Shown here: in pieces, positions 1,868 through 54,773 of the stretch
How the letters are laid out: each line of letters opens with the position of its first letter
Numbering within the stretch: position 1 is the first letter of the stretch
Source of the DNA: Sipunculus nudus
Lineage: Eukaryota; Annelida; Sipuncula; Golfingiida; Sipunculidae
Length of the DNA: 64,000 nt
Direction of reading: 5' to 3'
Assembly: GCA_026874595.1 (NCBI GenBank)
Contig: CM049311.1
Span: forward strand, 32,383,176 to 32,447,175
The notes under the pieces: generated by a model
Database searches by the model: none
Seen by the model: only the letters and a program-made list of their open reading frames with translations
What the model was told of the DNA's origin: nothing
Position numbers and translations under genes: made by a program

Positions 1868-3269
1868 ATGCCCCCGCCACAAAGTGGCCAGGGCATGTAG
1901 TTTTACCCATGTCCGTCCTTCCGTCATTCCGTCAATCCGAAATCAAACAGTTGTACGGACTTTTTTTCGCAAGGCCTGCAGATATTGGCCTGATTTTTGG
2001 TGTGTGGGCAGATAATGACCAGTTACAGATCCAGTTCGCGTTTCGTCCTGGTTGACCTACTTTTGACCGTTTTACGGCTCCTAAACTTAGAAAATTTCAA
2101 GAAAAATATAAATTTTCATGACAAATACACATGTACATACTTTTTTTCACAATGCCTGCAGATATTGGCCTGATTTTTGGTCTGTGTGCAGATAATGACC
2201 AGTTACAGATCAAGTTTGAGTTTCGTTATGGTGGACCTAATTTTGACTGTTTTACGGCTCCTTAACTTAGAAAATTTTTTGAAAAATAGAAATTTCATGA
2301 CAATACACATGTACGGACTTTTTTTCACAATGCCTGCAGATATTGGCCTGATTTTTGGTATGTAGGCAGATATAGACCAGTTACAGATCGAGTTCGCGTT
2401 TCCTCCCGGTTGACCTACTTTATGATTTTTTTTACCGCTCCTAAACATAGAAAATTTCAAGTAAAATATAAATTTTTAATGACAAATGTACATGTACAGC
2501 TGTTTTAGCCCTCAGCTCATAGGCTGATGGGCTATTGTCGTCACCCAAGCTGTCCATCTGTCCGTCTGTCTGTCTGTCCGTCCGGAGTCTGTCCATCCTG
2601 CGTCTGTTAACTTTTACCTTGTGAGCGGGATATATAATAATAATGTCTAAAAGGTTTCACCGTTGCAATTTTATTTCATCAGTGAATATGTATATCGATA
2701 AAATCTCAGTCAAGTTCGAAGATTGGTGACCTTGACCCATTTTTCTACATTTTAGAGCTGATTATACAAAAACACTCAAAAGCTTATATCTCAGGAACCA
2801 TATGGTGGATTGTTATGAAACATGGTACATACCTCTCCAATTTAGATTTATAACTGATTATCAGCTTTTGCTAATATCCTAGTTTTGCAATGCAGTGCTT
2901 ACAGATACTGGCCTAATGTTTGGTCTGTGGGTGCATAATGACCACTTACAGATCAAGTTCGTGTTTCATCCCAGTTGACCTATTTTTGACCATATGACAG
3001 ATCCTGAACATAGAAAAATTTCATGAAAGACAGAAATTTTTATGATTAATGCACATGTATGGACTTTTTTTCACAATGCCTGCAGATACTGGCCTGATTT
3101 TAGGTGTGTTGCTTGATAATGACCCTTTACAGATCATGATTGCATTTTGCCCTTGTTGACCTACTTTTGACCATACGACACCTCCTGAACTTAAAAAATT
3201 TTACAAAATTTAACTAATGTTTCTAATTTGCCCCAGGCGGGGGCATTCGTGTCGTTCAGACACATCTAG
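1868..3269 (+). mobile_element. HINE-like element E1 (host of nested element F)
   Basis: A non-autonomous Helentron-like element. The 5' end is a hairpin, ATGCCCCCGCCAC then AAA then GTGGCCAGGGCAT. The 3' end carries the complementary arm GGCGGGGGCAT, then a hairpin GTGTC-GTTCA-GACAC, and terminates in CTAG followed by TT. The interior consists of diverged tandem units of about 175 bp containing 'CTGCAGATATTGGCCTGATT'. There is no transposase frame. A second element (F) is inserted at 2507-2882, between T residues of a unit. Confidence 0.75.
2507..2882 (+). mobile_element. HINE-like element F nested in E1
   Basis: A 376-bp insertion interrupting an E1 unit. It starts with a hairpin AGCCCTCAGC-TCATAG-GCTGATGGGCT, has a (TCTG/TCCG)-rich stretch, and ends in CCTAG followed by host TTTT. 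Uninterrupted E1 units show that host sequence resumes as T-tract plus CAATGC, so integration was between T residues. I see no clear second copy of the 5' arm near its 3' end, unlike families B, C, D and E. Confidence 0.55.
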
Positions 3270-3351
3270 TTTTTTCAGCCCTTGATGCTTGTGTTTTTTT
3301 GTGTGAGCAGTCAATTTCACAGCTTGAGAGTAAATAAAAATTTTGTTTTTT

Positions 3352-6300
3352 AGCTCAGCTGACTGAAAGTCATCTGAGCTATAGCGATCACTCTTTGTCT
3401 GTCGTCCGTCTGTCCGTCTGTCCGTCCGTTAACCAGGCACAAATCGTAACTGCTGAACCTAGAACCTTGTAACTTGGGATTCTGAGAGGTCCATGAAAAA
3501 TCTCCTTGGAAACCAGAAATTAGGTCTCTGTTACCCATATCCTTCGAGCTATGGGGCCCCAAAGTACCCCCCAGAAAAGTCAAAAATTTCATACAAAAAC
3601 TTCAATATCTCATTAACTACTTGACTGATGGTCATGATTTTTGGCATACATATTGATCATGAGATGTTTCATCAGTTTCTGCAGACTGGTGGCGCCACCT
3701 GTATTTTTTGATTTTTTACAAATTTTTTTCTCTACTTTTGAGACCTTTAAAAATGTGAACATCTGTTAACAAGGCACAAATTGTAAAGCCTAGACCTAGA
3801 ATCTTAATTCTTGATACACTGAGTGGTCCATGAAAAATCTCCTTGGAAACCAGAAATTAGGTCTCTGTTACCCATATCCTTCGAGCTATGGGGCCCCAAA
3901 GTACCCCCCAGAATAGTAAAAAATTTCATACAAAAACTTCAATATCTCAATAACTACAACACTGATGGTCATGATTTTTTGCATACATATTGATCATGAG
4001 ATGTTCCATAAGTTCCTGCAGACTGGTGGCGCCAACTGTATTTTTCGATTTTTTTACAAATTTTTCCTCTATTTTTGAGACGTTTAAAGATGCTGTCATC
4101 TGTTAACCTGGCACAAATCGTAACCGCTGGACCTAGAATCTTCATTCTCGACACACTGAGAAACCTATTAAAAGTCTCCGTGGAAACCATAAATTAGATC
4201 TCTGTTACCCATATCCTTCGAGCTATAGGGCCCCAAAGTACCCCCCAGAAAAGTAAAAAATTTCATACAAAAACTTCAATATCTCATTAACTACTTGACT
4301 GATGGTCATGATTTTTGGCATACGTATTGATCATGAGATGTTCCATCACTTCCTGCAGACTGGTGGCGCCACCTGAATTTTTCGATTTTTTACAAATTTA
4401 AAAATGTGAACAGCTGTTAACAGGGCACAAATCATAAAGACTGGACCTAGAATCTTCATTCTTGACACACTGAGAGGTCCATAAAAAGTCTGCATGGAAA
4501 CCTGAAATAAAGTCTCTGTTACCCATATCCTTTGAGCTATGGGGGGCTCCCAATAACCCCCCAGAATAATGGAAAATTTGATAAAAACAAACTGCAACAT
4601 CTCAATAACTACAACACTGATGGTCATGATTTTTGGCATACATATTGATCAAGAGGTGTTTCATCAGTTTCTGCAGACTGGTGGTGCCACCTGTATTTTT
4701 TTAAATTTTCACATTTTTTTTCTCTATTTTCGAGACCTTTCAGGATGTAGTTATCTGTCAACAGGGTACAAATCGTAAGGACTGGACCTAGAATCTTCAT
4801 TGTTGACACACAGGGAGACCCATGATAAGTCTCCATGGACACCTGAAATTAGGTCTCTGTTACCCATATCCTTTGAGCTATGGCACTCCAAAGTACAGCT
4901 CAGAATAATGGAAAATTTGATACAAAAGCTGAAGTATCTGAACAACTAATGCAGAGATCACCATAATTGTTTTCATGGATATTGATCATGGAGTGTTTCA
5001 TCAGTTTCTGCAGACTGGTGGCACCACCTGTATTTGTTCGGGTCTTTTTATGAATTTTTTTCTCTATTTTTGAGACCTTTAAAGTTATGAACATCTGTTA
5101 ACAGGGCACAAATCATTAAAACTGGACCTAGAATCTTCATTCTTGACACACAGGGAGACCCATGAAAAGTCTCCATGGAAACCTGAAATTAGGTCTCTGT
5201 TACCCATATTCTTTAAGCTGTATGGCTCCAAATTACCCCCCAGAATAATGGAAAATTTGATACAAAAACTGCAGTATCTCAATAACTACAACACTGATGG
5301 TCATGATTTTCGGCATACATATTGATCATGACCTGTTCCATCAGTTTCTGCAGACTGGGTGCGCCACCTCTATTTTTTTCAAATTTTTACAATTTTTTTT
5401 CTCTTTTTTGATACCTTTAAAGATGTGGTTATCTGTCAACAGGGTACAAATCGCAACAACTGGACCTAGAATCTTCATTCTTGTCATGCAAGAAGGCCCA
5501 TGAAAAGTGCCTGTGGAAACTTAAAATTAGGTCTCTGTTACCCATATTCTTCAAGCTATAGGACTCTGAAGTATCCCTCAGAATAATGGACAAATTTGAT
5601 ACAAAAGCTGAAGTATCTGAACAACTAATGGGGAGATCACCATGATTCTTTGCATGGATATTGATGTTTGTAAGTGTTTTTATTAGTTTCTGCAGACTGG
5701 TGGAGCCCTCTGTATTTTTGTACCCGCCATAACGAAGTTTTGTGGATACTGTGTTTTTGACCGGGTTCCTCCGCCGTTGCCGCGTTCGTTTCCAGAGAGC
5801 TCCTCTGGGACTTGATTTTATCAGCTTTCCAAGCTCATATCTCGGGAACCGTTTGACTGATCAGGAAATAAAATTTATACTAATGTAGCCCTCGGATAGC
5901 TTTATAACATACACAAAAAATGGTGGCGCCACCTGTAACCATGTTTGCACAGTGTCCATCTGTTCACCTGCCTTTGGATAAAATCACTCATATCTCTGCA
6001 GTGAATTGACTAATTCATCTGAAATTCGGCATGCGTATACATCCTGGATAGCTTTCTTGATTTTATGACAGGTGGCGCCACCTACATTCTCATTCACGCT
6101 GATGACATCCAAGCTCATATTTCGGGAACCGTTTGACCGATGGGGCCAAAATTTTGCATGTATATAGATCTAACATAGCTCTTTATCATACGCTAAACTG
6201 GTGGCGCCACCTGCAACCATTTTTGCACAGCGTTTGTCTGTTTGTCTGCCGTGCAATAATGTCACTCATATCTCGGCAGTGGTTTGACATATCTGCCTAA

Positions 6301-7233
6301 AATTTTGCAGTTTTATACATCCTGGATAGCTTTCTTGATTTTATTACAGGTGGTGCCACCTTTATTCTAGTTTATGCTGCAGACATCCAAGCTCATATCT
6401 CAGGAACCGTTTGAACGATTGGGCCAAAATTTTGCATGTGTATAGATCTCACATAGGTCTTTATCATACACAAAACTGGAGGGGCCACCTGCAACCATTT
6501 TTGCACATTTTGCACAGCGTCTGTCTGTTGGTCTGACGTGGCCTAAAAGCACTCATTTCTCTGTAGTGGTTTGACATAACTGCCTAAAATTTTTGCAGGT
6601 TTATACATCCTGGATAGCTTTCTTGATTTTATGACAGGTGGCGCCACCTACATTCTAGTTAACGCTGCACACATCCAAGCTAATATCTCAGGAACCATTT
6701 GACCGATTGGGCCAAAATTGTGCTTGTGTTTAGATCTCACATAGGTCTTTATCATACACAAAACTGCAACCATTTTTGCACAGCGTCTGTCTGTTTGTCT
6801 GCCGTGGGCTAAAATCACTCATATCCATGTAGTGGTTTGACTTTTCTGCCTAAAATTTTGCATATGTATACAACTTGGACAGCTTTCTGGATTTGTGGTA
6901 GGTTGCACAACCTACATACACATTTAGGCTGCAGACATCCATGCTAATATGCAACATACCTCACTCTGTTTCCCCTTGCCACTCAATCCATGCCTCACTT
7001 CACTCTGATTTTGGCAGATACACGTAGTCACTTGTCGGCTACCCGTATTCTAGTTTTTAAAGTTTACACATTTTTTCTCTATTTTTCAGATATATAAATA
7101 CAGACTAAATCTTGGCCTGTTGGTTAATCTGTTTGATGCTTCAGTTGAATGGGTATCTACCATTCTGATGATAAAATTTCCTTTTGTGAATCTCTTCCCA
7201 GTCAGCTGAGCGTCATGACCCATGGGTCACTTG
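3352..7233 (+). mobile_element. HINE-like element D1 with tandem core (host of B1)
   Basis: It starts with the imperfect hairpin AGCTCAGCTGACTG/AAGTCATCTGAGCT. It then has a TCCG-rich stretch and about seven tandem units of roughly 335 bp (unit starts near 3428, 3766, 4102, 4416, 4757, 5098 and 5437). The 3' end has the complementary arm GTCAGCTGAGC, the palindrome TGACCCATGGGTCA and a CTTG end followed by TT. Several units contain GGTGGCGCCACC after CTGCAGACT. Short open frames here are by-products of the repeats. Element B1 interrupts it at 5720-7053. D2 (7710-9588) is an uninterrupted relative. Confidence 0.8.
5720..7053 (+). mobile_element. HINE-like element B1 nested in D1
   Basis: A diverged family B copy. 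The 5' hairpin arm is GTACCCGCC, related to GTATCCGCC in B2 and B3. The interior has tandem units of about 280 bp made of two diverged halves. Each half ends near GGTGGCGCCACC and contains 'CTCATATCTC' and 'AAAATTTTGCA' blocks. The 3' end has GGCAGATACA, a hairpin around GTAGTC/GGCTAC, and CTAG followed by TTTTT. Flanking D1 sequence continues in register with the uninterrupted D2 copy, so both borders are defined. Confidence 0.8.
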
Positions 7234-7709: not shown

Positions 7710-9588
7710 AGCTCAGCTGACTGTAAGTCATCTGGGCTATAGCGATCACCCTTTGTCCGTCGTCCGTCTGTCGTGCCGTCCGTCCGTCCGTTAACCTGGC
7801 ACAAATCGTAACTGCTGGACCTAGAAACTTGTAACTTGACATTCTGAGAGGTCCATGAAAAATCTCCTTGGAAACCAGAAATGAGGTCTCTGTTACCCAT
7901 ATCCTTTGAGCTATGGGGCCCCAAAGTACCCCCCAGAATAGTCAAAAATTTCATACAAAAACTTCAATATCTCATTAACTACACCACTGATGGTCATGAT
8001 TTTTTGCATACATATTAATCATGAGATGTTCCATTAGTTCCTGCAGACTGGTGGCGCCACCTGTATTTTTAGATTTTTTACGAATTTTTTTTTCTATTTT
8101 TGAGATCTTTAAATATGTGAACATCTGTTAACAAGGCACAAATTGTAAAGACTGGATCTAGAATCTTCATTCTTTACACACTGAGAGACCTATGAAAAGT
8201 CTCCATGGAAACCAGAAATGAGGTCTCTGTTACCCATATCCTTTGAGCTATGGAGCCCCAAAGTACCCCCCAGAATAGTAAAAACTTTCATACAAAAACT
8301 TCAGTATCTCATTAACTATATCACTGATGGTCAAGATTTTTGGCATACATATTGATCATGAGATGTTTCATCAGTTTCTGCAGACTGGTGGCGCCACCTG
8401 TATTTTTTTATTCTTTACGAATTGTTTTCTCTATTCTTGAGACCTTTAAAAATGTGAACATCTGTTTGGGGCACAAATCGTAAAGACTGGACCTAGAATC
8501 TTCATTCTTGACACAGTGAGAGACCTATGAAAAGTCTCCATGGGAACCTGAAATTAGGTCTCTGTTACCCATATCCTTTGAGCTTTGGCACTCCAAAGTA
8601 CAGCTCAGAATAATGGAAAATTTGATACAAAAGCTGAAGTATCTGAACAACTAATGCAGAGATCACCATAATTGTTTGCATGGATATTGATCATGGAGTG
8701 TTTCATCAGTTTCTGCAGACTGGTGGCACAACCTGTACTTGTTCAGGTTTTTTTACGAATTTTTTTCTCTATTTTTTAGACCTTCAAAGATATGAACATT
8801 TGTTAACAGGGCACAAATCATAACAACTGGACCTAGAATCTTCATTCTTGACACACAGGGAGACCCATGAAAAAGTCTCCATGGAAACCTGAAATTAGGT
8901 CTCTGTTACCCATATCCTTTAAGCTGTATGCCTCCAAAATACCCTTCAGAATAATAGAAAATTTGATACAAAAACCGCAGTATCTCAATAACTACAACAC
9001 TGATGGTCATGATTTTTCGCATACATATTGATCATGAGGTGTTCCATCAGTTTCTGCAGACTGGGTGCGCCACCTCTATTTTTTTCAAATTTTTACGAAT
9101 CTTTTTCTCTATTTTTGAGTTATCTGTCAACAGGGTACAAATAGTAACAACTGGACCTAGAATCTTCATTTTTGTCATGCAAGGAGGCCCATGAAAAGTG
9201 TCTGTGGAAACCTGAATTTAGGTCTCTGTTTCCCATATCCTTCAAGCTATAGGACTCCGAAGTTTCCCTCACAATAATGGAAAATTTGATACAAAAGCTG
9301 AAGTATCTGAACAACTAATGCAGAGATCACCATGATTCTTTGCATGTATATTGACCATTAAGTGTTTTTATTAGTTTCTGCAGACTGGTGGAGCCACCTG
9401 TATTTTTTTTAAGTTTACGCTTTTTTCTCTATTTTTGAAATATATATAAATGCAGGCACAATCTTGGCCTGTTGGTTAATCTGTTTGATGCTTCAGTTGA
9501 ATGGGTATATACTACCATTCAGATGATAAAATTTCCTTTTTCGAATCTCTTCCCAGTCAGCCAAGTGTCATGACCCATGGGTCACTTG
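7710..9588 (+). mobile_element. HINE-like element D2 with tandem core
   Basis: It has the same ends as D1: the AGCTCAGCTGACTG hairpin at the start and TGACCCATGGGTCA then CTTG at the end. It carries about five tandem units of roughly 335 bp, several with GGTGGCGCCACC. The 3' arm is mutated (GTCAGCCAAG). Its last unit reads through an uninterrupted T-tract (CTGTA followed by eight T, then AAGTTTAC), which serves as the empty site for B1 in D1. No protein-coding capacity. Confidence 0.8.
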
Positions 9589-14280: not shown

Positions 14281-16946
14281 AGCTCAGCTGACTATAAGTC
14301 ATCTGAGCTATAGTCGTGGTCCATTGTCCGTCGTCCGTCCGTCTGTCCGTCCGTCCGTCCGTCCGTCCGTCCGTCCGTCCGTCCGTCCGTAGATGTGGCA
14401 CGTTTTGAAACCATAAGACCTAGGAATCCAAAATTCGGCATAATGTTAGATGTCCCCAAGATCTCCTCCCAAGCCGAAAACTGGGTCTTTGCGACTTTGT
14501 TCCTTTGAGAAATTAAAGAAAAACCTCAATTTTTTATTAAAAACCTATTTTTACACTTCAGGACTGCCTAATATAAAAACCACTCATCTGTTTTTCCTCA
14601 TACTTACCATAGTTATTCCTCTATATAGTTCCTATGTACATGCCAGAAATTATGTCTGTATTATAAAAATTTAAAAAGTTATGGGCCCAAACATAATGCA
14701 TTGTGTAAAAAATCAGGAAAGATATTTGATCACTTAACACAAAATATGTTAAAGCTATAAACTTTTTTTCCAGTAATATAACTTTAATTAATCAAAATTA
14801 AATTGTATACCCAAAATTAGATCAAAATCTTTTAAATTTTTTAATATATTAACAAAAATAAAAAATTGGTACCTTAAATTTTGCCCAACTTTGACCATGG
14901 CACGTTTTTTTCCTGTAAGTACTGTGGATTTAATTTTCACAGCATGTTTTTTTTAGCATTTTGTCTGTAAACACCAAAAATTTGAAACCAGTTGATCAAA
15001 AACTGTAGATTTTATTCAAGCTTTCAAGCACCATGTAACATATTGTTTACATCAAACTAGTGTCATGCAGTTTGCAAGTGCTCAGCTCCCCAACTTCAGC
15101 TCTCAGTTCCTAAAATTTGGCATACAATTAGATGTCTCAAAAATCCCCTACCATGCCAAGAATTTGATCACTAGGACTTAATACCTTCGAGATATTAATA
15201 AAAAACTTCATTTTTCCATTAAAAACCCATTGTTACACTTCAAGACAGCCTAATATCAAAACCACTGATCTGACTTTAATCATATATAATATACATATTT
15301 TTCTATATATTCTCTATGCACATGCCAGAAATGATGTCAGTATTGCGTAATTGTTTTAAGTTATGGGCCCAAACATAATGCACTTTGTAAAAAATCAAGA
15401 AATATATTTACTCCCTTAACAAGAGGATTGCTGAAGCTAGAGATTTTTTGTCAGGGATGTAACATTATTTAATCAGGATTCAATTGAATACCCAAAATTA
15501 GTTCTGAATTTTTCAAATTGTATAAGTTATTAGTATAAATATAAAATTAGTACCTTAAATTTTGCCCAACTTTGACCATGGCATGTTTGTTTCCTGTGAG
15601 TACTGTTGATATAATTTTCATATCATGCACACATAAAGATTTCAGCTTTTTAGTTTGAAAAGCTGAAAGAAATTGGCCAAAAATTGTAGCTTTTATTGAT
15701 GTTTTTATGAGACCATGTCAGACCTTGGCTCTCTGTAGCACCTCTTGAGTCACCTGTATGTTGACCTGGTTGAACTTTCAGCAAATTATGCATGCTTGAG
15801 GCGAGACATAAACTGGGGCGTCCAGGCAGCTTATTATATAATGGCCAGCCACAGTTGATCTAGGTGTCCAACCCAACTCATCTAGTAGTTTTAACCAACA
15901 ACATAACAATAAACAATAAATTAATAAATTTTTATTGGTTTTTAATAACAAATTAAAGAAAAATAGAAAAGGAATTTGTTAGTTGATAATAACAGGAAAT
16001 TAACTTGCAGTTACCGATGATATAAGTATCTTGTATCGATGGATAGAATGTCATGTATTCCAAATAACACCATGCAGTCACCTATGGTATTTTTCAGTTC
16101 AATTTTAATGATAAAAAATTAAATCATATTATTCATTACTAATCATTAGGGATCATATGAAGGAAATTAATGATAGACAAAGATGCAGTTGATAATATTA
16201 ATCTAGATTCCCACTGTGTCTAGTTTGTACATTGATGTGAAATTAGTCCAAAATAAATATATTACATTTTTTTTTTAATATAAATAAAAGCCATAAATCC
16301 AGGTACTTATGATCATTATTTAAATGTGTGAATTTTGTATATTCTGGATTCTCAACATCATTGTTTGGTGAAAACTGAATAAATACCAGACATGGTGCGA
16401 ATACTTTGCAATTGTATTTAAACACGAATATGAATATGTACTCCATTATAAAATTTCTTTCATAAGAATGGGAATTCAGGTAAAAATGAAAGTATATGAA
16501 TACCAGTGCAAATATTTTCAAAATGTATTAATGAATGCATTCATGAATATATTCTTTAATATTATTTTAATAATCATTTCAGTCATATTTTATTTGAAAA
16601 AATCATACTATTCTCTTATTATTTTTAATAAAAATTATATTTAGGACAATATTTGTAATTTTTCTAATAAATAGTTAAACTCTTATATTATATGTTCTGC
16701 TTATATTAGTTATATGGCCAAGTCAAAATCTGTGTGACAATCCCACTCCATTTGTTAATGAAATAAATGAAATTAATCCTCTTTCCTGTCTCCAAAGGTA
16801 CTTTCAAAATCATACATAAGCTAAACAACAACAACTCATAATACAGCTTATTTTTATTACCATATAAAACCAGCATGTGCCTCATTTCTAAATCATATTT
16901 TTTTATCATATATATCAGCTGAGCACCGTGACCCATAGGTCCCTTG
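14281..16946 (+). mobile_element. HINE-like element D3 (long AT-rich interior)
   Basis: It has D-family termini: the 5' hairpin AGCTCAGCTGACT/AGTCATCTGAGCT, a (TCCG)n stretch, a 3' arm CAGCTGAGC, then GTGACCCATAGGTC and the end CTTG followed by TT. The interior differs from D1 and D2. It consists of two diverged units of roughly 690 bp (first with 'AAGATCTCCTCCCAAGCC', second with 'AAAATCCCCTACCATGCC') plus about 1 kb of AT-rich sequence, and has no GGTGGCGCCACC motif. It is closely related to D4 and D5. Its 3' end lies 12 nt before the exon at 16959. Confidence 0.8.
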
Positions 16947-27300: not shown

Positions 27301-28108
27301 ACATTATAGAGAGTGCTTAATACATGGATTGTTTAATATTTTCAGAAATAAACACATTATTTTAAGAAACATACAAATTTGTACTTAAACTGCATAATAT
27401 ATACCGGTACAGACTTTTTGGTCATTTGTTCAATCATGCTTGACTTTTATATACTATTTTGCATGTGCTGTTTTAAAGTATAACACTTTTGACATGCACA
27501 TGGAACCATGCATCAATATTAATTCATGCTCTTGAAAGGGTAGGGAATGATTTATAAATAATTTCACATTTGGGGTTTATCATATATACATTTATATGCA
27601 TGTGTGTAGACCCTTTGCCCAGAGGTATTTCTGCAGCCAACCCCCCCCCCCCCCCTTCTTTTGTAAATCCTGTCCATGGTATTAGCTAATGCAAATTAAG
27701 TGGATAAAATGTGTGAGATATTATATCAAATTATATTGTTCCACAAATATTACATGACATTGCAGGTTAATGCAATATGTGGTCATCAAATTATGTTATC
27801 TGAGTACACAGTTTTAGCGTGATATTGTGATACAAACATTTTGTATTAAGTGATTAAATTGTATTAGTACTGGTTTATTGTGATGTATTTCTGATTTTAT
27901 CTGTCCGTCAGTATAAAATTAGTTATCTGAAAAGAACCAATGAACATAGTGTGAGTATAAAGTATACCAGATGTTATTGTATTATACCAGTCCATAGATA
28001 TAAATTAAATCATATTATCTCACACATTGCTCAGAGGTTTTCTTAATGAATAATGAAAGGGACGTTATGAGGATAAACATTGAGTTAGTATGAATACAAA
28101 TGGTAATT
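24353..28108. other. AT-rich intron-like DNA, no gene seen
   Basis: Contains poly(C) runs at 25725-25737 and 27641-27655, a short CA/TA run near 26205-26230, and two nearby copies of a CATGAAATGGGC motif at about 26260-26300. No supported exon. Confidence 0.5.
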
Positions 28109-31100
28109 GGATCCACAGACTATACTATGGTTTCATGATGGTCCCTGACCGCTGTTGCAGATAACATTTATTAGATCCCAAGACTATACTATGGTTTAAG
28201 GACAGTCCCTGACCGCTGCTGCAGTTAACAGTTATTGGATCCCCAGACTATACTATGGTTTCATGACGGTCTCTGACTGCTGTTGCAGATAACAGTTATT
28301 GGATCCCCAGACTATACTATGGTTTCATGACTGTCCTTGACCACTGTTGCAGACAACAGTTATTGGATCCCCAGACTATACTATGGTTTAAGGACAGTCC
28401 CTGACCACTGTTGCAGATAACAGTTATTGGATCCCAAGACTATACTATGGTTTAAGGACAGTCCCTGACTGCTGTTGCAGATAACAGTTATTGGATCCCA
28501 AGACTATACTATGGTTTCATGATGGTCCCTGACCGCTGCTGCAGATAATAGTTATTGGATCCCCAGACTATACTATGGTTTCATGACGGTCTCTGACCAC
28601 TGTTGCAGATAACAGTTATTGTATCCACAGACTATACTATGGTTTAATGATGGTCCCTGACCGCTGCTGCAGATAACAGTTATTGGATCCCCAGACTATA
28701 CTATGGTTTCATGACGGTCTCTGACCACTGTTGCAGATAACAGTTATTGGATCCCCAGACTATACTATGGTTTAATGATGGTCCCTGACCGCTGCTGCAG
28801 ATAACAGTTATTGGATCCCCAGACTATACGATGGTTTAATGATGGTCTCTGACTGCTGTTGCAGATAACAGTTATTGGATCCCAAGACTATACTATGGTT
28901 TCATGATGGTCCCTGACGGCTGCTGCAGATAACAGTTATTGGATCCCCAGACTATACTATGGTTTCATGACTGTCTCTGACCACTGTTGCAGATAACAGT
29001 TATTTGATCCCCAGACTATACTATGGTTTCATGACGGTCTCTGACCACTGTTGCAGATAACAGTTATTGGATCCCCAGACTATACTATGGTTTCATGATG
29101 GTCCCTGACCACTGCTGAAGATAACAGTTATTGGATCCCCAGACTATACTATGGTTTAATGACGGTCTCTGACTGCTGTTACAGATAACAGTTATTGGAT
29201 CCCCAGACTATACTATGGTTTCATGACGGTCTCTGACCACTGTTGCAGATCAGTTATAGGATCCCCAGACTATACTATGGTTTAATGACGGTCCCTGACC
29301 GCTGTTGCAGATAACAGTTATTGGATCCCCAGACTATACTATGGTTTCATGACGGTCTCTGACTGCTGTTGCAGATAACAGTTATTGGGGTCCCAGACTA
29401 TACTATGGTTTAATGACGGTCTCTGACTGCTGTTGCAGATAACAGTTATTGGATCCCCAGACTATACTATGGTTTAATGATGGTCCCTGACCGCTGCTGC
29501 AGATAACAGTTATTGGATCCCCAGACTATACTTTGGTTTCATGACGGTCTCTGACCACTGTTGCAGATAACAGTTATTGGATCCCCAGACTATACTATGG
29601 TTTCATGACGGTCTCTGACCACTGTTGCAGATAACAGTTATTGGATCCCCAGACTATTCTATGGTTTCATGACGGTCTCTGACTGCTGTTGCAGATAACA
29701 GTTATTGGGGTCCCAGACTATACTATGGTTTAATGACGGTCTCTGACTGCTGTTGCAGATAACAGTTATTGGGTCCCTAGACTATACTATGGTTTCATGA
29801 TGGTCCCTGACTGCTGCTGAAGATAACAGTTATTGGATCCCCAGACTATACTATGGTTTAATGACGGTCTCTGACTGCTGTTGCAGATAACAGTTATTGG
29901 ATCCCCAGACTATACTATGGTTTAATGACGGTCTCTGACTGCTGCTGCAGATAACAGTTATTGGATCCCCAGACCATACTATGGTTTAATGACGGTCCCT
30001 GACTGCTGCTGCAGGTAACAGTTATTGGATCCCCAGACTATACTATGGTTTAATGACGGTCCCTGACTGCTGCTGCAGGTAACAGTTATTGGATCCCCAG
30101 ACTATACTATGGTTTAATGACGGTCTCTGACTGCTGCTGCAGGTAACAGTTATTGGATCCCCAGACTATACTATGGTTTCATGACGGTCTCTGACTGCTG
30201 CTGCAGATAACAGTTATTGGAACCCCAGACTATACTATGGTTTAATGACAGTCCCTGACCGCTGTTGCAGATAACAGTTATTGGATCCCCAGACTATACT
30301 ATGGTTTCATGACGGTCTCTGACCACTGTTGCAGATAACAGTTATTGGATCCCCAGACTATACTATGGTTTAATGACGGTCTCTGACCACTGTTGCAGAT
30401 AACAGTTATTGGATCCCCAGACTATACTATGGTTTCATGACGGTCTCTGACCACTGTTGCAGATTACAGTTATTGGATCCCCAGACTATACTATGGTTTA
30501 ATGACGGTCTCTGACCACTGTTGCAGATAACAGTTATTGGGGTCCCAGACTATACTATGGTTTAATGACGGTCTCTGACTGCTGTTGCAGATAACAGTTA
30601 TTGGGTCCCTAGACTATACTATGGTTTCATGATGGTCCCTGACTGCTGCTGAAGATAACAGTTATTGGATCCCCAGACTATACTATGGTTTAATGACGGT
30701 CTCTGACTGCTGTTGCAGATAACAGTTATTGGATCCCCAGACTATACTATGGTTTAATGACGGTCTCTGACTGCTGCTGCAGATAACAGTTATTGGATCC
30801 CCAGACCATACTATGGTTTAATGACGGTCCCTGACTGCTGCTGCAGGTAACAGTTATTGGATCCCCAGACTATACTATGGTTTAATGACGGTCCCTGACT
30901 GCTGCTGCAGGTAACAGTTATTGGATCCCCAGACTATACTATGGTTTAATGACGGTCTCTGACTGCTGCTGCAGGTAACAGTTATTGGATCCCCAGACTA
31001 TACTATGGTTTCATGACGGTCTCTGACTGCTGCTGCAGATAACAGTTATTGGAACCCCAGACTATACTATGGTTTAATGACAGTCCCTGACCGCTGTTGC

Positions 31101-32944
31101 AGATAACAGTTATTGGATCCCCAGACTATACTATGGTTTCATGACGGTCTCTGACCACTGTTGCAGATAACAGTTATTGGATCCCCAGACTATACTATGG
31201 TTTAATGACGGTCTCTGACCACTGTTGCAGATAACAGTTATTGGATCCCCAGACTATACTATGGTTTCATGACGGTCTCTGACCACTGTTGCAGATTACA
31301 GTTATTGGATCCCCAGACTATACTATGGTTTAATGACGGTCTCTGACCACTGTTGCAGATAACAGTTATTTGATCCCCAGACTCTACTATGGTTTCATGA
31401 CGGTCTCTGACCACTGTTGCAGATAACAGTTATTGGATCCCCAGACTATACTATGGTTTCATGATGGTCCCTGACCACTGCTGAAGATAACAGTTATTGG
31501 ATCCCCAGACTATACTATGGTTTAATGACGGTCTCTGACTGCTGTTACAGATAACAGTTATTGGATCCCCAGACTATACTATGGTTTCATGACGGTCTCT
31601 GACCACTGTTGCAGATAACAGTTATAGGATCCCCAGACTATACTATGGTTTAATGACGGTCCCTGACCGCTGTTGCAGATAACAGTTATTGGATCCCCAG
31701 ACTATACTATGGTTTCATGACGGTCTCTGACTGCTGTTGCAGATAACAGTTATTGGGGTCCCAGACTATACTATGGTTTAATGACGGTCTCTGACTGCTG
31801 TTGCAGATAACAGTTATTGGATCCCCAGACTATACTATGGTTTAATAATGGTCCCTGACCGCTGCTGCAGATAACAGTTATTGGATCCCCAGACTATACT
31901 TTGGTTTCATGACGGTCTCTGACCACTGTTGCAGATAACAGTTATTGGATCCCCAGACTATACTATGGTTTCATGACGGTCTCTGACCACTGTTGCAGAT
32001 AACAGTTATTGGATCCCCAGACTATACTATGGTTTCATGACGGTCTCTGACTGCTGTTGTAGATAACAGTTATTGGGGTCCCAGACTATACTATGGTTTA
32101 ATGACGGTCTCTGACTGCTGTTGCAGATAACAGTTATTGGATCCCCAGACTATACTTTGGTTTCATGATGGTCCCTGACCGCTGCTGAAGATAACAGTTA
32201 TTGGATCCCCAGACTATACTATGGTTTAATGACGGTCTCTGACTGCTGTTGCAGATAACAGTTATTGGATCCCCAGACTATACTATGGTTTAATGACGGT
32301 CTCTGACTGCTGTTGCAGATAACAGTTATTGGATCCCCAGACCATACTATGGTTTAATGACGGTCTCTGACTGCTGCTGCAGGTAACAGTTATTGGATCC
32401 CCAGACTATACTATGGTTTAATGACGGTCCCTGACTGCTGCTGCAGGTAACAGTTATTGGATCCCCAGACTATACTATGGTTTAATGACGGTCTCTGACT
32501 GCTGCTGCAGGTAACAGTTATTGGATCCCCAGACTATACTATGGTTTAATGACGGTCTCTGACTGCTGCTGCAGGTAACAGTTATTGGATCCCCAGACTA
32601 TACTATGGTTTAATGACGGTCTCTGACTGCTGCTGCAGATAACAGTTATTGGATCCCCAGACTATACTATGGTTTAATGACAGTCCCTGACCGCTGTTGC
32701 AGATAACAGTTATTGGATCCCCAGACTATACTATGGTTTCATGACGGTCTCTGACCACTGTTGCAGATAACAGTTATTGGATCCCCAGACTATACTATGG
32801 TTTAATGACGGTCTCTGGCCGCTGCTGCAGGTAACAGTTATTGGATCCCCAGACTAAACTATGGTTTAATGATGGTCTCTGGCCGCTGCTGCAGGTAACA
32901 GTTATTGGATCCCCAGACTAAACTATGGTTTAATGACGGTCCCT
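28109..32944. repeat. 64-bp BamHI-type satellite S2, about 76 units
   Basis: Units of 64 bp begin with GGATCC in most cases, followed by CCAGACTATACTATGG, then TTTCATGACGGTCTCTGACC (or variants) and TTGCAGATAACAGTTATT. Variant markers (GGGGTCCC, AGACCATA, CTTTGG, TATAGG, GCAGGTAACAG) recur at exact multiples of 64: 832, 1536 and 2368 bp. This shows block duplication within the array. No open frame of note. It lies between the exons at 16959 and 34244, so it is intronic if they belong to one gene. Confidence 0.95.
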
Positions 32945-37591: not shown

Positions 37592-38763
37592 GTATCCGCC
37601 AAAACAGAGTTTTGCGGATACTATGTTTTCAGCTGCACACCGCTGCCGCTGCTGCTGCCGCCGCCGCCGCGTAGGTGTCCGGAGAACTCCTCCGTAACCC
37701 GGGATTATGTTCGGGTCACATGTGAACTGCTGCGCCCCGATTTTGTTTTGACCTCTTACCTTTCCTCTACGCTCTGCGTCCGTTTGTGCGTCTGTTTCCA
37801 CACATAAACCGACTTATCTCGGGAACCGTTTGACCGATCAGGAAATTTTTTTGCACAAATGTAACCCTTGGAGAGCTTTATAACATACACAAAAAATGGT
37901 GGCGCCACCTGCAACCATGTTTGCACAGTGTCCATCTGTTTGTCTGCCTTGGGTAAAAATTACTCATATCTCTGCAGTGACTTGACTAATTCACCTAAAA
38001 TTGGGCATGCATATACATCCTGGATAGCTTTTCTGATTTTATGACAGGTGGCGCCATCTACATTCACGTTTACGCTGCAGACATCCAAGCTCATATCTCG
38101 GGAACCGTTTGACCGATTGGGCCAAAATTTTGCATGTGTATAGATCTCACATAGCTCTTTATCATACTCAAAACTGGTGGCGCCACCTACAGCCATTTTT
38201 GCACAGCTCCTGTTTGTTTGTCTGCCATGGGATAAAATCACTCCTATCTCGGCAGTGGTTTGACATATCTGCTTAAAATTTTGCAGGTTTATACATCCCC
38301 GACAGCTCTCTTGATTTTATGACAGGTGGCGCCACCTGCATTCTAGTTTATGCAGCAGACATCCAAGCTCATATCTTGGGAACCGTTTGACCGATTGGGC
38401 CAAAATTTTGCATGTGTATAGTTCTCACATAGCTCTTTATCATACGCAAAACTGGTGGCGTCACCTGCAGCCATTTTTGCTCAGCGTCCATCTATTTGTC
38501 TGCCACGGGCTAAAATCACTCATAAACATATAGTGGTTTGACTTATCTGCCTCAAATTTTGCATATGTATACAACTTGGACGGCTTTCTGGATTTTGTGG
38601 TAGGTGGCGCAACCTACATACACCATTTGGCTGCAGACATCCATGCTAATATGCAACACTTCACTCTTTTTTCCCCTTGCCACTCAATCCATGCCTCACT
38701 TCACCTGTTCCACTCTGATTTAGGCGGATACACGTGGTCTCTTGTCGACTACCCGTATTCTAG
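37592..38763 (+). mobile_element. HINE-like element B2
   Basis: A well-preserved family B copy. The 5' hairpin is GTATCCGCCAAAAC-AGA-GTTTTGCGGATAC, followed by a (GCC)n stretch. Diverged half-units of about 140 bp pair into units of about 280 bp, with GGTGGCGCCACC or one-base variants at most junctions. The 3' arm is GGCGGATACA (38723-38732), followed by a hairpin GTGGTC/GACTAC and the end CTAG then TT. The ORFs inside are spurious. Confidence 0.85.
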
Positions 38764-40333: not shown

Positions 40334-40851
40334 CAGTGTATAGGGTAAAAAGCTTTTCATATTATATTACATCTAAATATACTCTAGTATTCCTAGTGCC
40401 TCAGGTCACAGCAAATTGTATATTGCTGCAGAGTTATTAGTGGCTACAACAAGGAAGTTCTGAACAGTCACTTTGTGTGCACAAACACTTCTTGACCTTG
40501 CATGCCTCTTAAGGCAAAATATATGATCGTAAGCCTCATTCTGTTAAACACATTCTAACACTGTTCAGCCAAGTGTAGATGGCTTATATCATATGACTGT
40601 CTTACGAAAGGAACACCGAACTTGATTCATGTGGTTTTAACATCACAATAAATTTGGAGCTTCTGATGGAAGGGTTGCTTGTTTTGTTGTGTTTCTTCCT
40701 AGAAAATTAAGGGCAAGGTTGAACATGTAAAGATGACTTCTCACCTACAACACCATTTGTCTGCCTGTAACTTTATGTATTAAGATATTTCTTATATCCT
40801 TCTATAATTGGAGAATGTGGGTATGGTAAAAAAATTGCATAGGCAGTACTA

Positions 40852-44170: not shown

Positions 44171-47100
44171 GTATCCGCCAAAACAGAGTTTTGCGGATAC
44201 TATGTTTTCAGCCCACCGCCGCTGCCGCCGCGTAGGTGTCCGGAGAACTCTGTAACCGCTGGGTGGAATTTTACTAAACCAGGGATTATGTTCGGGTCAC
44301 ATGTGAACTGCTGCGCCACCATTTTGTTTTGACCTCTGACCTGTGCTCTGCGTCCGTTTGTGCGTCTGTTTCCACACATAAACCCACATATCTCGGGAAC
44401 CGTTTGACCGATCAGGAAATTTTTTTTGCACAAATGTAGCCCTTGGAGAGCTTTATAACATACACAAAAATGGTGGCGCCACCTGCAACCATGTTTGTAC
44501 ATGTTCATCTGTTCATCTGCCTTGGGTTTAAATCACTCATATCTCTGCAGTGGTATGACTAATTCACCTGAAATTTGGCATGCGTATACATCCTGGATAG
44601 CTTTTCTGATTTTATGACAGGTGGCGCCACCTACATTCACGTTTATGCTGCAGACATCCAAGCTCATATCTTGGGAACGGTTTGACCGATTGGGCCAAAA
44701 TTTTGCATGTGTATAGATTTCACATAGCTCTTTATCATACGCAAAACTGGTGCGCCACTTGCAGCCATTTTTAGCTCAGCTGACTATAAGTCATCTGAGC
44801 TATAGTCGTGGTCCATTGTCCGTCGTCCGTCCGTCTGTCCGTCCGTCCGTCCGTCCGTCCGTCCGTAGATGTGGCACGTTTTGAAACCGTAAGACCTAGG
44901 AATCCAAAATTCAGCATAATGTTAGATGTCCCAAAGATCTCCTATCAAGCCGAAAACTGGGTCTTTGCGACTTTGTTCCTTTGAGAAATTAAGGAAAAAC
45001 CTCAATTTTTTATTAAAAACCTATTTTCACACTTTAGGACTGCCTAATATCAAAACCACTCATCTGTTTTTCCTCATATTTACCATAAATATTCCTCTAT
45101 ATAGTTCCTATGTACATGCCAGAAATTATGTCTGTATTATTTAATTTAAAAAAGTTCTGGGCCCAAACATAATGCATTTTGAAAAAAATAAGGAAAGATA
45201 TTTGATCACTTAACACAAAAAATGTTAAAGCTGTGGACCTTTTTTCCAGTAATATAACTTTAATTAATCAAAATTAAATTGTATACCCAAAATTAGATGA
45301 AAATCTTTAAAATTTTTTAAAATATTAATAAACATAAAAAATTGGAACCTTAAATTTTGCCCAACTTTGACCATGGCACGTTTTTTTCCTGTAAGTACTG
45401 TGGATTTAATTTTCACAGCATGTTTTTGTCAGCATTTCAACTGTTAACACCAAAAATTTGAAACCAGTTGATCAAAAACTGTAGATTTTAATCAAGTTTC
45501 AAGCACCTTGTAACATATTGTTTACATCAAGCTAGTGTTATGCAGTTTGCAAAAGATCAGCTCCCCAGCTTCAGCTCTAAGTTCCTTAAATTCAGCATAC
45601 AGTTAGATGTCTCCAAAATCCCCCACCATGCCAAGAATTTGGTCACTAGGACTTAATACCTTCGAGATATTAATGAAAAACTTCATTTTTCCATTAAAAA
45701 CCCATTGTTACACTTCAAGACTGCCTAATATCAAAACCACTGATCTGACTTTAATCATAAACAATATACATATTTTTCGTTCTCTATGCACATCCCAGAA
45801 TGATGTCAGTATTGCGTAATTGTTTTAAGTTATGGGCCCAAACATAATGCACTTTGAAAGAAATATATTTACTCCCTTAACAAGGGCATTGCTAGAGATT
45901 TTTTTGTCAGGGATGTAACATTATTTAATCAAGATTCAATTGAATACCAAAAATTAGTTCTGAATTTTTCACATTTTATAAGTTATTAGTATAAATATAA
46001 AATTAGTACCTTAAATTTTGCCCAACTGTGACCATGGCACGTTTGTTTCCCGTGAGCACTGTTGATATAATTTTCATATCATGCACACATAAGGATTTCA
46101 GCTTTTTAGTTTAGAAAGCTGAAAGAAATTGGCCAAAAATTGTAGCTTTTATTAATGTTTTTTATGAGACCCTGTCAGACTTTGGCTCTCTCCAGCCCCT
46201 CTTGAGTCACCAGTATGTTGACCTTGTTGACCTTTCATCAAATTATGCACGCTTGAGGCGAGGCATACAGGAATCCAGGCAGCTTATGGCCAGCCACAGT
46301 TGATCCAGGTGTCCAACCCAACTCATCTAGTAGTTTTAACCAACAACATAACAATAAACAACAAATTAATAAATTTTTATTGGTTTTTAATAAATTAAAG
46401 AAAAATAGAAAAGGAATTTGTTAGTTTAAAATAACAGGAAATTATCTTGCAGTTACTGATGATATAAGAATCTTGTATCGATGGGTAGAATGTCGCATAT
46501 TCCAAATAACACCATGCAGTCACCTATGGCATTTTTCAGTTCAATTTTAATGATAAAGAAGTAAATCATATTATTCATTACTAATCATTAGGGATCATAT
46601 GAAGGAAATTAATGATAGACAAAGATGCAGTTGATAATATTAATCTAGATTCCTACTGTGTCTAGTGTGTACATTGATGTGAAATTAGTCCAAAATGAAT
46701 TTTTTACAGTTATTTTTTAATATAAATAAAAGCCATAAAACCAGGTACTTATGATCATTATTTAAATGTGTGAATTTTGTATATTCTGGATTCTCAACAT
46801 CATTGTTTGGTGAAAATTGAATAAATACCAGACATGGTGCGAATACTTTGTAATTGTATTTAAATACGAATATGATTATGTACTCCATCATAAAAATTCT
46901 TGCATAAAGAATGGGAATTCAGGTAAAAATGAAAGTATATGAATACTGGTGCAAATACTTTCAAAATGTATTCATGAATGCATTCATGAATATACTCTTT
47001 AATATTATTTTAATAATCATATCAGTTATATTTCATTTTTAAAAAATCATATGATTCTCTTATTATTTTTAATAAAAATTATATTTGGGACAATATTTGT

Positions 47101-48231
47101 AATTTTTTTTAATAAATAGTTCAACTCTTATATTACATGTTCTGCTTATAAGTTATATGGCCAAGTCAAAATCTGTGTGACAATAGTACTCCAATTGTTA
47201 ATAAAATAAATGAAATCAATCCTCTTCCCTGTCTCCAAAGGTACTATTAAAATCATACATAAGCTAAACAACAACAACTCATAATACAGCTTATATTTAT
47301 TACCACACAAAACCAGCATGTGCCTTATTTCTAAATAATATTTTTTTATCATATATAACAGCTGAGCGTCGTGACCCATAGGTCCCTTGTTGCACAGCTC
47401 CCGTCTGTTTGTCTGCCATGGGATAAAATCACTCATATCTCAGCAGTGGTTTGACATATCTGCCTAAAATTTTGCAGGATTATACATCCTGGACAGCTCT
47501 CTTGATTTTATGACAGGTGGCGCCACCTACTTTCTAGTTTACGCTGCAGATATCCAAGCTCCTATCTCAGGAACTGTTTGACTGATTGGGCCAAAATTTT
47601 GCATGTGTATAGTTTTCACATAGCTCTTTATCATACGCAAAACTGGTGGCGCCATCTGCAACCATTTTTGCACAGCATTCGTCTGTTTGTCTGCCACGGG
47701 ATAAAATCACTCATATCTGGGCAGTGGTTTGACATATCTGCCTAAAATTTTGCAGGTTTATACATCCTGGACAGCTCTCTTGATTTTATGACAGGTGGCG
47801 CCACCTACATTCTTGTTTATGCTGCAGACATCCAAGCTCATAACTCAGGAACCGTTTGACTGATTGGGCCAAAGTTTTGCATGTGTATAGTTCTCACATA
47901 GCTCTTTATCATACGCAAAACTGGTGGCACCACCTGCAACCATTTTTGCACAGCATCCATCTGTTTGTCTGCCACGGGCTAAAATCACTCATATACATGT
48001 AGTGGTTTGACTTATCTGCCTTAAATTTTGCATATATATACAACTTGGACAGCTTTCTGGATTTTGTGGTAGGTGGCGCAACCTACATACACATTTTGGC
48101 TGCAGACATCCATGCTAATATACAACACTTCCCTCTATTTCCCCTTGCCATTCAATCCATGCCTCACTTCACCAGTTCCACTCTGATTTAGGCGGATACA
48201 CGTAGTCACTTGTCGATTACCCGTATTCTAG
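44171..48231 (+). mobile_element. HINE-like element B3 (host of D4)
   Basis: It starts with the family B hairpin GTATCCGCCAAAAC/GTTTTGCGGATAC and ends with the arm GGCGGATACA (48191-48200), a hairpin GTAGTC/GATTAC and CTAG then TT. It has units of about 280 bp with GGTGGCGCCACC at several junctions. D4 (44773-47389) interrupts it in the T-tract of 'GCAGCCATTTTTGCACAGC', intact at the same place in B2. Without D4 it is about 1.44 kb. Confidence 0.85.
44773..47389 (+). mobile_element. HINE-like element D4 nested in B3
   Basis: A near relative of D3 along its whole length: AGCTCAGCTGACT hairpin, (TCCG)n, two diverged units, AT-rich interior, 3' CAGCTGAGC, GTGACCCATAGGTC and CTTG then TT. Small indels distinguish it from D3. 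The shared ORFs at its left end (for example a 72-codon frame from 44926) occur in D3 and D5 too and reflect the common unit, not a protein. Confidence 0.85.
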
Positions 48232-52101: not shown

Positions 52102-52103
52102 TG
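50456..52103. other. AT-rich DNA with two (TA)n microsatellites
   Basis: (TA)n runs lie at 51752-51802 and 52048-52098; the latter directly abuts D5. No supported exon. The 80- and 73-codon frames at 50633 and 50960 are AT-rich and have no splice support. Confidence 0.6.
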
Positions 52104-54773
52104 AGCTCAGCTGACTATAAGTCATCTGAGCAATAGTCGTGGTCCATTGTCAGTCGTCCGTCCGTCTGTCTGTCCATCTGTCCGTCCATCTGTCTGTCCG
52201 GATGTCCGTTCGTAAGACTGGCACTTTTCGACACCATTGGACCTACGAATCTGAAATTCGCCATACAGTTAGATGTCCCCAAAATCTCCTACCATGCCGA
52301 AAATTGGGTCAATAGGACTTTGTTCCTTTGAGATATTAAGGAAAAACCTCAATTTTTTATTAGAAATCTATTTTCACACTTCAGGACTGCCTAATATCAA
52401 AACCACTCATCTGGTTTTCTTCATATTTACCATAAATATTCCTCTATATAGTTCCTATGTACATGTCTGAAATTAAGTCAGTATTATTTAATTTAAAAAA
52501 GTTATGGGCCCAAACATAATGGACTTTGTAAAAAAATCAGGAAAGATATTTGGTCACTTAAGACCATAAGTGTTAAAGGTAGGGACTTTTTTTCAGTAAT
52601 ACAACTTTAATTGATCAAAATTTAATTGTATACCAAAAATTAGATCAAAATCTGTTAATTTTTTTTAAATATTGGCAAAAATATAAAATTGGTACCTTAA
52701 ATTTTGCCCAAGTTTGACCATGGCACGTTTTTTTTCTGTAAGTACTGTGGATTTAATTTTCACAGCATGTTTTTGTTAGCATATTGTCTGTTAACACCAA
52801 AAATTTGAAACCAGTTGATCAAAAACTGTAGATTTTATTCAAGTTTTCAAGCACCATGTCACATCAGGTTTACATCAAGCTAGTGTTATGCAGTTTGCTA
52901 GACCTCAGCTCCCCAGCTTCAGCTCTAAGTTCCTTAAATTTAGCATACAGTTGGATGTCTCCAAAATGCCCTACCATGCCAAGAATTTGATCACTAGGAC
53001 TTAATTCCTTCAAAATATTAATGAAAAACTTCATTTTTCCTTTAAAACCCCATTGTTCCACTGTAAGACTGCCTAATATCAAAACCACTGATCTGACTTT
53101 GATCATATATAATATACATATTTTTCTTTACATTCGCTATGCACATGCCAGAAATGATGTCAGTATTGCCTAATTGTTTTAAGTTATGGGCCCAAACACT
53201 TTTTTAAATATCAAGAAATATATTTACTCCATTAACAAGAGGATTGCTTAAGCTAGAGATTCTTTGTCAGGGATGTAACATTATTTAATCAAGATTCAAT
53301 TGAATACCAAAAATTAGTTCTGAATTTTTCAAATTTTAAATTTATTAGTATAAATATAAAATTAGTACCTTAAATTTTGCCAAACTTTGACCATGGCACG
53401 TTTGTTTCCTGAGAGCACTGTTGATATAATTTTCATATTATGCACACATAAGGATTTCATCTTTGTAGTTTAGAAAGCTGAAAGAAATTGGCCAAATATT
53501 GTAGCTTTTATTAATGTTTTTATGAAACCATGTCAGACCCAGGCTTAATCTAGCCCCTCTTCAGTCACCTGTATGTTGACCTTGTTGACCTTTCATCAGA
53601 TTATGCATGCTTGAGCGAAGCATACACTGGGGCAGCCAGGCAGCTAATGCCCAGCCACAGTTGATCCAGGTGTCCAACCCAACTCATCTAGTAGTTGTTT
53701 TGAAAAACAACATAACAATTAACAATAAATTAATAAATTTGTATTGTTTTTTTTATAACAAATTAAAGAAAAATTTATAGAAAAGGAATTTGTTAGTTGA
53801 TGAGTAACAGAAAATTAACTTGCAGTTACTGATGATGTAAGAATCTTGAATGGATGGATAGAATGTCAATGTCAATGTTAATCCAAATAACACCATGCAG
53901 TCACCTATGGTATTTTTCAGTGAAATTTTAATGATAAAAAAATAAATCATATTAATCATTCCTAATCATTAGGGATCATATGAAGGAAATTAATGATAGA
54001 CAAAGATGCAGTTGATAATATTAATCTAGATTCCTACTGTGTCTAGTGTGTTGATTGATGTGAAAGTAGTCCAAAGTGAATATATTACATTTATTTTTTA
54101 ACATAAATAAAAGCCATAAAACCAGGTACTTATGATCATTATTTAAATTTGTGAATTTTGTATATTCTTGATTCTCAACATCATTGTTTGGCTAAAACTG
54201 AATAAATACTAGACATGGTGCAAATGCTTTGCAAATGTATTTGAATACGAATATGAATATGTACTGCATTAAAAAATTTTATTGCATAAGAATGGGAATT
54301 CAGGTAAAAATGAAAGTATTTGAATACCAGTGCAGATACTTTCAAAATGTATTCATGAATGCATTCATGAATATATTCTATAATATTATTTCAATAATCA
54401 TTTCAGTTATATTTTATTTTAAAAAATCATATGATTTTCTTTTTATTTTTTTTTTAAATAAAAATTATATTGGCACAATATTTGTTATTAAATTTTAATA
54501 AATAGTTAAACTCTTTTATTATATGTGCTGCTTATAAGTTATATGGCCAAGTCAAAATCTGTGTGACAATAGCACTCCATTTGTAAATAAAATAAGTGAA
54601 ATCAGTCCTCTTCCCTGTCTCCAAAGATACTATCAAAATCATACATAAGCTAAACACCAACAACTCATAATAAAGCTTATATTTATAACCACACAGACAA
54701 GCATGTGCCTCTTTCCCAAATCATGTTTTTTATTATATAGAACAGCTGAGCGCCGTGACCCATGGGTCCCTTG
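52104..54773 (+). mobile_element. HINE-like element D5
   Basis: Same subfamily as D3 and D4: hairpin AGCTCAGCTGACT/AGTCATCTGAGC at the left, variable TCCG/TCTG stretch, two diverged units, AT-rich interior, and 3' CAGCTGAGC, GTGACCCATGGGTC and CTTG then TT. It is slightly more diverged than D3 and D4 are from each other. It begins 5 bp after a (TA)n run. Confidence 0.8.

Follow-up and report, generated by a model that had tools for sequence, protein, structure and literature searches.

The window analysed here is 64,000 nucleotides of Sipunculus nudus DNA (contig C6:32383176-32447175 of a 1.43-Gb assembly with exon-intron make-up). Six types of element account for its 12 insertions (E, F, D1a, D1b, D2a, D2b, D2c, B1, B2, B3, C1 and the fragment C2), all on the + strand and three of them nested inside others. 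Families B to F are very probably several non-autonomous Helitron2/Helentron families of the HINE kind, whose mobilisation in trans by RepHel would follow a single-stranded rolling-circle route. The HINE plan is already known, and the families are new as far as could be told. Beyond the window, HINE copies tend to lie on the same strand over distances of tens to hundreds of kb, whether they belong to C or to D, and copies of a miniature inverted-repeat transposable element (MITE) on contig C1 are not.

A common end plan

In the 11 complete elements the 5' boundary follows a T-run or TT (with an intervening G in D2c), and the 3' end is CTAG (B, C, E, F) or CTTG (D), then TT. The initial annotation had described, for B, C, D and E, a single copy of the 5' arm near the 3' end, followed by a short hairpin and CTAG or CTTG before TT. 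Arms, palindromes and end motifs are indeed found at those places, above chance, but the arm is not single: its complement occurs twice, beside the 5' end, where it makes a 5' hairpin, and 22-32 bp before the 3' end, ahead of the 3' palindrome. Exact arm matches in the window numbered 4 for B and 2 for E, versus 0.09 and 0.02 in shuffles; with at most one mismatch, 64 were counted for C (mostly in a 64-bp array) versus 0.11, and 11 for D versus 0.39. A strict de novo scan of the window yielded D1a, C1 and a single spurious pair on the + strand and nothing on the - strand, missing the remaining copies; 80 shuffled strand scans gave 4 hits.

The features by which HINEs are recognised are distributed as follows. 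The 5' arm lies 0-2 bp from the 5' end, with its subterminal 3' complement upstream of the palindrome, in 9 of 10 mapped copies, the exceptions being B3 and, outside this count, F. When the last 60 bases were shuffled 1000 times, no more than 3 shuffles equalled the complementarity between 5' arm and 3' end; this holds for 9 of the 10 elements with a mapped 3' end. A 5' hairpin using the 5' arm is present in 11 of 12 copies, its stability being matched by at most 4 of 300 shuffles; B3 fails here too (241/300). Sites are T-rich and the elements have no coding capacity, the sole start-codon open reading frame of at least 150 aa in the window lying outside them, in a 45-bp tandem repeat. The short 3' hairpin announced for each family is there as a palindrome, but its folding is strong in 2 of 11 cases only, C1 (2/300 shuffles) and D1b (5/300); E gave 29/300, F 34/300 and the remaining 7 of the 11 from 64/300 to 300/300, the stretches for E and B3 being placed one base off.

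Several points weigh against the HINE assignment. The arms were initially chosen for matching, so that their perfection is partly by definition. B3, whose arms are decayed, does not pass the test of far complementarity (919/1000 shuffles), and no far (3') arm was found for F, in a comparison made without shuffles. The 3' hairpins of B, D1a and D2 fold no better than shuffles.

The likelihood that we are dealing with chance palindromes in AT-rich DNA is vanishingly small. Such an origin would suit the 7 of 11 3' hairpins that do no better than shuffles, but not the empty sites described below, nor the number of genomic copies: the D 3' end, searched as a 33-place pattern, has 15,319 exact copies (7,765 + and 7,554 -) with 0 in the reversed control, and the C arm GTATCCCCAGAC has 8,972 genome sites with 51 in the reversed control. 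Two other identities were considered and rejected. A canonical Helitron (Helitron1) has 5' TC, 3' CTRR, insertion between A and T and no 5' hairpin; here 5' ends are A or G, 5' hairpins are present and sites are T|T (CTAG fits CTRR, CTTG does not). A transposon of the terminal inverted repeat (TIR)/DDE type, that is a MITE, is not compatible with asymmetric arms and with the absence of a regular target-site duplication beyond T in four elements. The Helentron/HINE assignment proposed initially is supported by asymmetric arms, the 5' hairpin, insertion into T-runs (four elements with empty sites) and the ends of sampled C copies (see below).

Elements of the window

Element E (1868..3269) has the 5' hairpin ATGCCCCCGCCACAAAGTGGCCAGGGCAT, 180-bp repeats, the 3' arm GGCGGGGGCAT (3236-3246) and the palindrome GTGTCGTTCAGACAC, then CTAG|TT. 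It is split by F (376 bp, 2507..2882), which has the 5' hairpin AGCCCTCAGCTCATAGGCTGATGGGCT, a GTCC-type microsatellite and a CTAG|TT end. D1a (3352..7233) has arms GCTCAGCTGACTG / CAGTCAGCTGAGC, 337-bp repeats, the palindrome TGACCCATGGGTCA and CTTG|TT, and holds B3 (5720..7053) in one of its repeats; D1b is at 7710..9588. D2a (14281..16946) is followed by C1 (19398..21132), with arm GTATCCCCAGACA, 289-bp repeats, hairpin TGGCACCTGCGGTGCCA and CTAG|TT. Further along are C2 (37462..37580), a family C 5'-end fragment for which no 3' end was located, and B1 (37592..38763), with arms GTATCCGCC / GGCGGATAC, 278-bp repeats, a weak 3' stem (GTGGTC/GACTAC) and CTAG|TT. B2 (44171..48231) is split by D2b (44773..47389), and D2c occupies 52104..54773.

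Insertion sites and genomic copies

For four elements, the joined flanks match uninterrupted paralogues within the window, which provide empty sites. D2b, whose host is a repeat unit of B2, turned 5 Ts into 7 (10 spanning matches to unbroken B units; net extra Ts 2). B3 turned 8 Ts into 10, plus one A, in a D1 repeat (10 matches, at 9359-9465 and other D1 units; net extra Ts 2). F turned 7 Ts into 8, with about 5 further unmatched bases at the junction, as judged from 3 spanning E repeat units (net extra Ts 1). For C1, inserted in a MITE copy, the empty site at 1633-1729 gave 4 Ts on either side of the comparison (1 match, 76% identity; net extra Ts 0). No regular target duplication beyond T was seen at these four elements. 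A TT duplication cannot be told here from Ts borne by the element, an uncertainty on terminal Ts also expressed in the consulted parts of Thomas et al. (PMC4067079). B1 nested in C2 was rejected as a further case and B1 was left out of the set, because C homology does not resume past B1.

C copies were sampled genome-wide as 20 arm pairs 1-5 kb apart, chosen from 100 listed C-arm places. The TT|arm boundary was found in 18 of the 20, and all 16 copies printed in element orientation finish in CTAG or CTTG then T; three of these 16 have lost an intact 3' hairpin. Genomic ends stopping elsewhere than at CTAG/CTTG, or regular target-site duplications, which the initial annotation had named as adverse signs, did not appear in the C loci and empty sites examined. 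B copies with both ends exist outside the window too (one in the sample from contig C4), and E was encountered once only. Exact-pattern scans of viral contigs for the D, B, C and E ends gave 0 matches, as did one such scan of a further genome-contig collection for the D end; a literature query with end-sequence strings showed no transposon paper by title among those listed (15 of 19).

A proposed route of transposition

In the best copies of all six types the local 5' hairpin is defective: C1, D1 and D2 have one mismatch, B and F a bulge and E a 2x2 loop; in the Rep-bearing type described below, a G.T was read by eye. Where a far arm exists (9 copies), its pairing runs through the position of the defect, and in 10 of 10 copies the far duplex is computed to be more stable than the local one (E, -18.2 vs -13.4; D1a, -18.8 vs -12.8; B1 and B2, -14.9 vs -14.0; B3, -5.7 vs -3.9). 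These far energies leave out the entropy lost in closing a loop of 1-4 kb and use longer windows than the local ones, a bias which tells against the comparison. In the endpoint model of Bao and Jurka (PMC3627910, consulted in part), pairing of the 5' and 3' arms destroys the 5' hairpin, and stronger far pairing would suit this model. This is a suggestion only, because the arms were chosen for matching and the copies descend from common masters.

We propose that Rep would nick at the TT|5' boundary and that the local 5' hairpin would form during strand displacement. The emerging 3' arm would then pair with the 5' arm and oust the hairpin, so that replication would end at CTAG/CTTG, as in the endpoint model. 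The product would enter a T-rich single strand. The choice of strand would depend on the surroundings (transcription or fork direction) and not on the family, as neighbouring C and D copies lie on one strand.

Orientation of copies along the chromosomes

On contig C1 we used the first 100 listed D 3' ends (C1:64036-4723852, 0.06-4.72 Mb). Their strand switched 16 times in 99 steps, when 34.3 switches were expected and the minimum in 20,000 shuffles was 20. Among the first 43 listed copies, over 1.1 Mb, 42 are on the - strand, and D neighbours 1-50 kb apart share their strand in 59 of 67 cases. The effect extends across families: C copies and their nearest D copy (less than 100 kb away) have the same strand in 12 of 12 cases, three of which belong to one tandem row. 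These are the C copies of known strand in the region, 10 fetched and 2 added after dropping 4 duplicates. Adjacent C copies less than 100 kb apart agree in 15 of 18 cases, tandem rows included. The MITE served as control, with 2,820 exact sites (an earlier pattern, with 127 sites, was too sparse); on contig C1 its strand agreement was 13/21 with itself, 8/16 with C and 1/2 with D.

The 164-kb stretch around the window (C6:32333176-32497175, positions below in kb relative to the window) shows one switch: the - strand carries the ends at -41.3 and -39.6 kb, the + strand all those from -15.7 to +107 kb, minus matches that correspond to the self-complementary D hairpin being set aside. In 20-kb samples, one C and one D copy on contig C3 are + (plus a 16-bp minus match), all copies on C4 and C5 are -, C2 has one - copy and C7 one weak + match.

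Some observations speak against a property confined to HINEs. In the C6 stretch all 7 recognised MITE copies are +, like the HINEs, and so are 3 of 3 copies of an unclassified repeat; MITE copies on C3 and C2 also agree with the local HINEs. A further repeat in the C6 stretch is of mixed strands. A limited literature search, which took in parts of PMC5371812, PMC4778049 and PMC13286980 and, for one query, 15 of 139 hits, yielded no report of Helitron orientation domains.

What may set the strand

Co-orientation points to strand-directed targeting or to selection. Target supply was rejected as a cause: in masked DNA, T-runs and A-runs of at least 5 number 122 vs 141, and runs of at least 3 number 1188 vs 972, an imbalance too small to explain a strand ratio of 12 to 0. 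The T-A skew, too, is little different in the - and + parts of the C6 stretch (-0.036 vs 0.015). We tentatively consider, with rather less than even confidence, that in different rolling-circle families the orientation of insertion follows whichever strand is single-stranded at the site (lagging-strand template or non-template strand of transcription), so that HINE copies record the direction of replication or transcription over domains of ~0.1-1 Mb. Agreement of C with D is compatible with one rule of targeting common to both, which need not mean a single protein.

Selection after insertion, which would purge copies lying antisense to a host transcript and tolerate sense ones, is somewhat less likely than not. 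The switch of the C6 copies (-39.6 to -15.7 kb) coincides with a strand switch of exon-like frames, from a minus frame at -35.7 kb with a sub-threshold ankyrin match (E 0.0066) to a plus SAM exon at -18.4 kb (E 9e-7). Further + exon-like frames are found at -1.1, 16.9, 34.2 and 113.5 kb, and - frames on C4 and C5 agree with the - HINEs there; all these frames were chosen by eye from many on both strands, and Pfam supports the SAM exon only. The uniform strand of the C6 MITE copies is also what selection would give. On the other hand, on contig C1 the MITE agrees with the nearest C copy in only 8 of 16 cases, poly(A) hexamers are unbiased in D2a (17 vs 17; 1 vs 7 in element C1, small differences elsewhere), and one strand in 42 of 43 D copies over 1.1 Mb is more than expected of selection in introns. 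Insertion into the lagging-strand template, as in IS200/IS605, would make orientation a map of fork direction. We regard this as conceivable but doubtful. Rep chemistry acts on single strands (PMC4778049, in part), coherence extends over ~0.1-1 Mb, the effect is common to C and D and absent from the MITE on C1, and there is both a bacterial precedent and an explicitly stated question for Helitrons (parts of PMC5371812 and PMC4778049). Still, gene strand explains the single switch examined equally well, and the MITE copies there lie on the same strand.

Where the single-stranded DNA used in Helitron transposition comes from is described as an open question in the consulted part of PMC4778049. 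More than 15,000 exact D ends, together with the C/D orientation domains, make it testable against gene strand and fork direction. Local co-orientation across C and D is a potentially important new property, which may help show how targets are found.

Rep-bearing loci

The Pfam domain PF14214 has at least 143 matches in the genome, several in open frames of 2,229-2,426 aa. We examined the surroundings of two of them, minus the central 6 kb, which belong to one Rep family: Helitron2-type Rep-encoding loci at C4:36163192-36187215 (~24.0 kb) and C8:80128783-80149625 (~20.8 kb, by coordinates). Both begin with TT|GCTTGCCGGAA, a 5' hairpin and the GTCTGTTTGTC microsatellite, and both finish with the arm TTCCGGCAAGC, a short hairpin and GTCTAG|TT, where homology between the two copies stops. 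In both, the Rep frame is antisense to the element and several large tandem arrays lie inside. Three 3' ends of this type differ at two pairs of the stem, which change on both sides (GCCC/GGGC, AACC/GGTT, GACC/GGTC); the covariation rests on these three sequences. The 2,229-aa frame leaves room for an endonuclease domain fused to RepHel, as in Helentron sensu stricto. Near the C8 locus there is one further 5' end and one further 3' end of this type.

The terminal plan is thus common to HINEs and Rep loci, without establishing a single machinery. The initial suggestion of one replicative machinery for many ends was not borne out: the two loci examined follow the same plan with another arm, GCTTGCCGGAA. 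That neither of these two, among at least 143 matches, carries B, C, D, E or F arms also counts against mobilisation of the window families by a RepHel of this kind. We lean towards each arm family having its own autonomous partner, the common plan reflecting shared descent of Helitron2 ends and no shared machinery. This agrees with the Rep loci having an arm of their own, with published families being defined by identical arms (PMC4067079, in part) and with at least 143 Rep matches, which give room for many partners. The comparison covers one Rep family, however, and the 12/12 agreement of C with D in orientation implies one targeting rule for both.

Relatedness among families

The families had been presented as unrelated in sequence. 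This holds largely for E, whose only sequence in common with other families is GTCC-type microsatellite, but not for the others. In alignments with 200 shuffles each, the 5' ends of B and C align (score 62, best shuffle 23), as do those of D1, D2 and F (D1-D2, 100 vs 38; D2-F, 68 vs 40; D1-F, 55 vs 42, partly microsatellite), and the last 32 bp are common to D1 and D2 (44 vs 25). About 110 bp of the central repeats, around the palindrome GGTGGCGCCACC, are also shared, so that D1 repeats match those of B (64 vs 42) and C (53 vs 39), B-C reaching only 38 vs 36. A 16-bp form of this palindrome has 56 matches with at most 3 mismatches, versus 0.11 expected, most places being counted on both strands. 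The palindrome was noticed in central sequences of B, C and D1 at 3686-9400, 19715, 37896-38467 and 44470-47936. Despite the common 5' end of B and C, the inner half of the arm has changed at all three places where it occurs, as a pairing constraint predicts; the same kind of compensatory change is described by Bao and Jurka in the consulted part of PMC3627910.

A satellite and other features of the window

A 64-bp satellite of ~75 copies (28106..32941, +) aligns over ~50 bp with the 5' terminus of two C-subfamily copies (score 49 for L012 and 56 for L017, when the best of 200 shuffles reached 25), and the alignment takes in the TTATT in front of the element. On this resemblance, the satellite seems to have arisen from the 5' end of a C-subfamily HINE, and not from central repeats. 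On contig C1, at 1407723-1422081, the spacing of the arms indicates a tandem row of five family C elements with steps of ~2.7 kb; the two members fetched (L004, L005) are without the 3' hairpin. One genome thus offers HINEs beside Rep-bearing elements of the same end plan, plus a putative satellite from a HINE terminus.

The fold-back MITE, with TIR GGCCAAAA..GGTATGGTTCTCAGGCAC, is present at 1502-1838, 50121-50462 and ~19351-21230 (split by C1). The 45-bp tandem array, at 40847-41793, is open in several frames. A probable 3' splice site, TTCGTATTTCAG at 16947-16958, lies 12 bp past the end of D2a on the + strand, so that D2a itself would supply the branch-point region; the exon frame (16939-17259, +) had 0 matches in a PDB search and matched CNK2/3 only at E 0.16. 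Ten frames of the window compared with Pfam gave E 0.044 at best, and searches of the window for Rfam families and tRNAs gave 0 of each.

Comparison with known systems

As far as the consulted parts of Bao and Jurka 2013 (PMC3627910) and Thomas et al. 2014 (PMC4067079) go, HINE and Helitron2 elements share with ours a terminal 5' arm with hairpin, a 3' arm before a palindrome, insertion at TT, no clear longer duplication and, for HINEs, no coding capacity. Here, by contrast, D ends in CTTG, and every family has a defect in the local 5' hairpin (mismatch, bulge, loop or wobble) which is bridged by far pairing. The two Rep loci resemble Helitron-2_CRe and Helitron-1_DR, as partly seen in PMC3627910, by a RepHel antisense to the element; they differ by a size of ~21-24 kb by end coordinates and by large internal tandem repeats.

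Cg_HINE of Crassostrea gigas (Vojvoda Zeljko et al. 2020, PMC7492417, consulted in part) is close in design: an 11-12 bp subterminal inverted repeat with a local inverted repeat, a GTCY/GTCC microsatellite, central satellite-like repeats, a 3' palindrome, T-rich sites, flanks common to some families with unrelated repeats, and no autonomous partner linked. The likeness described is one of design, and a satellite apparently built from the 5' terminus and orientation domains are particular to the present case.

The nuclease family of bacterial IS200/IS605 differs from that of Helitrons. What IS200/IS605 would have in common with our elements, from the part of PMC5371812 consulted, is a mobile single strand that takes its orientation from the strand context around it. 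If true, strand-dictated insertion would be a eukaryotic counterpart of the lagging-strand bias of IS200/IS605.

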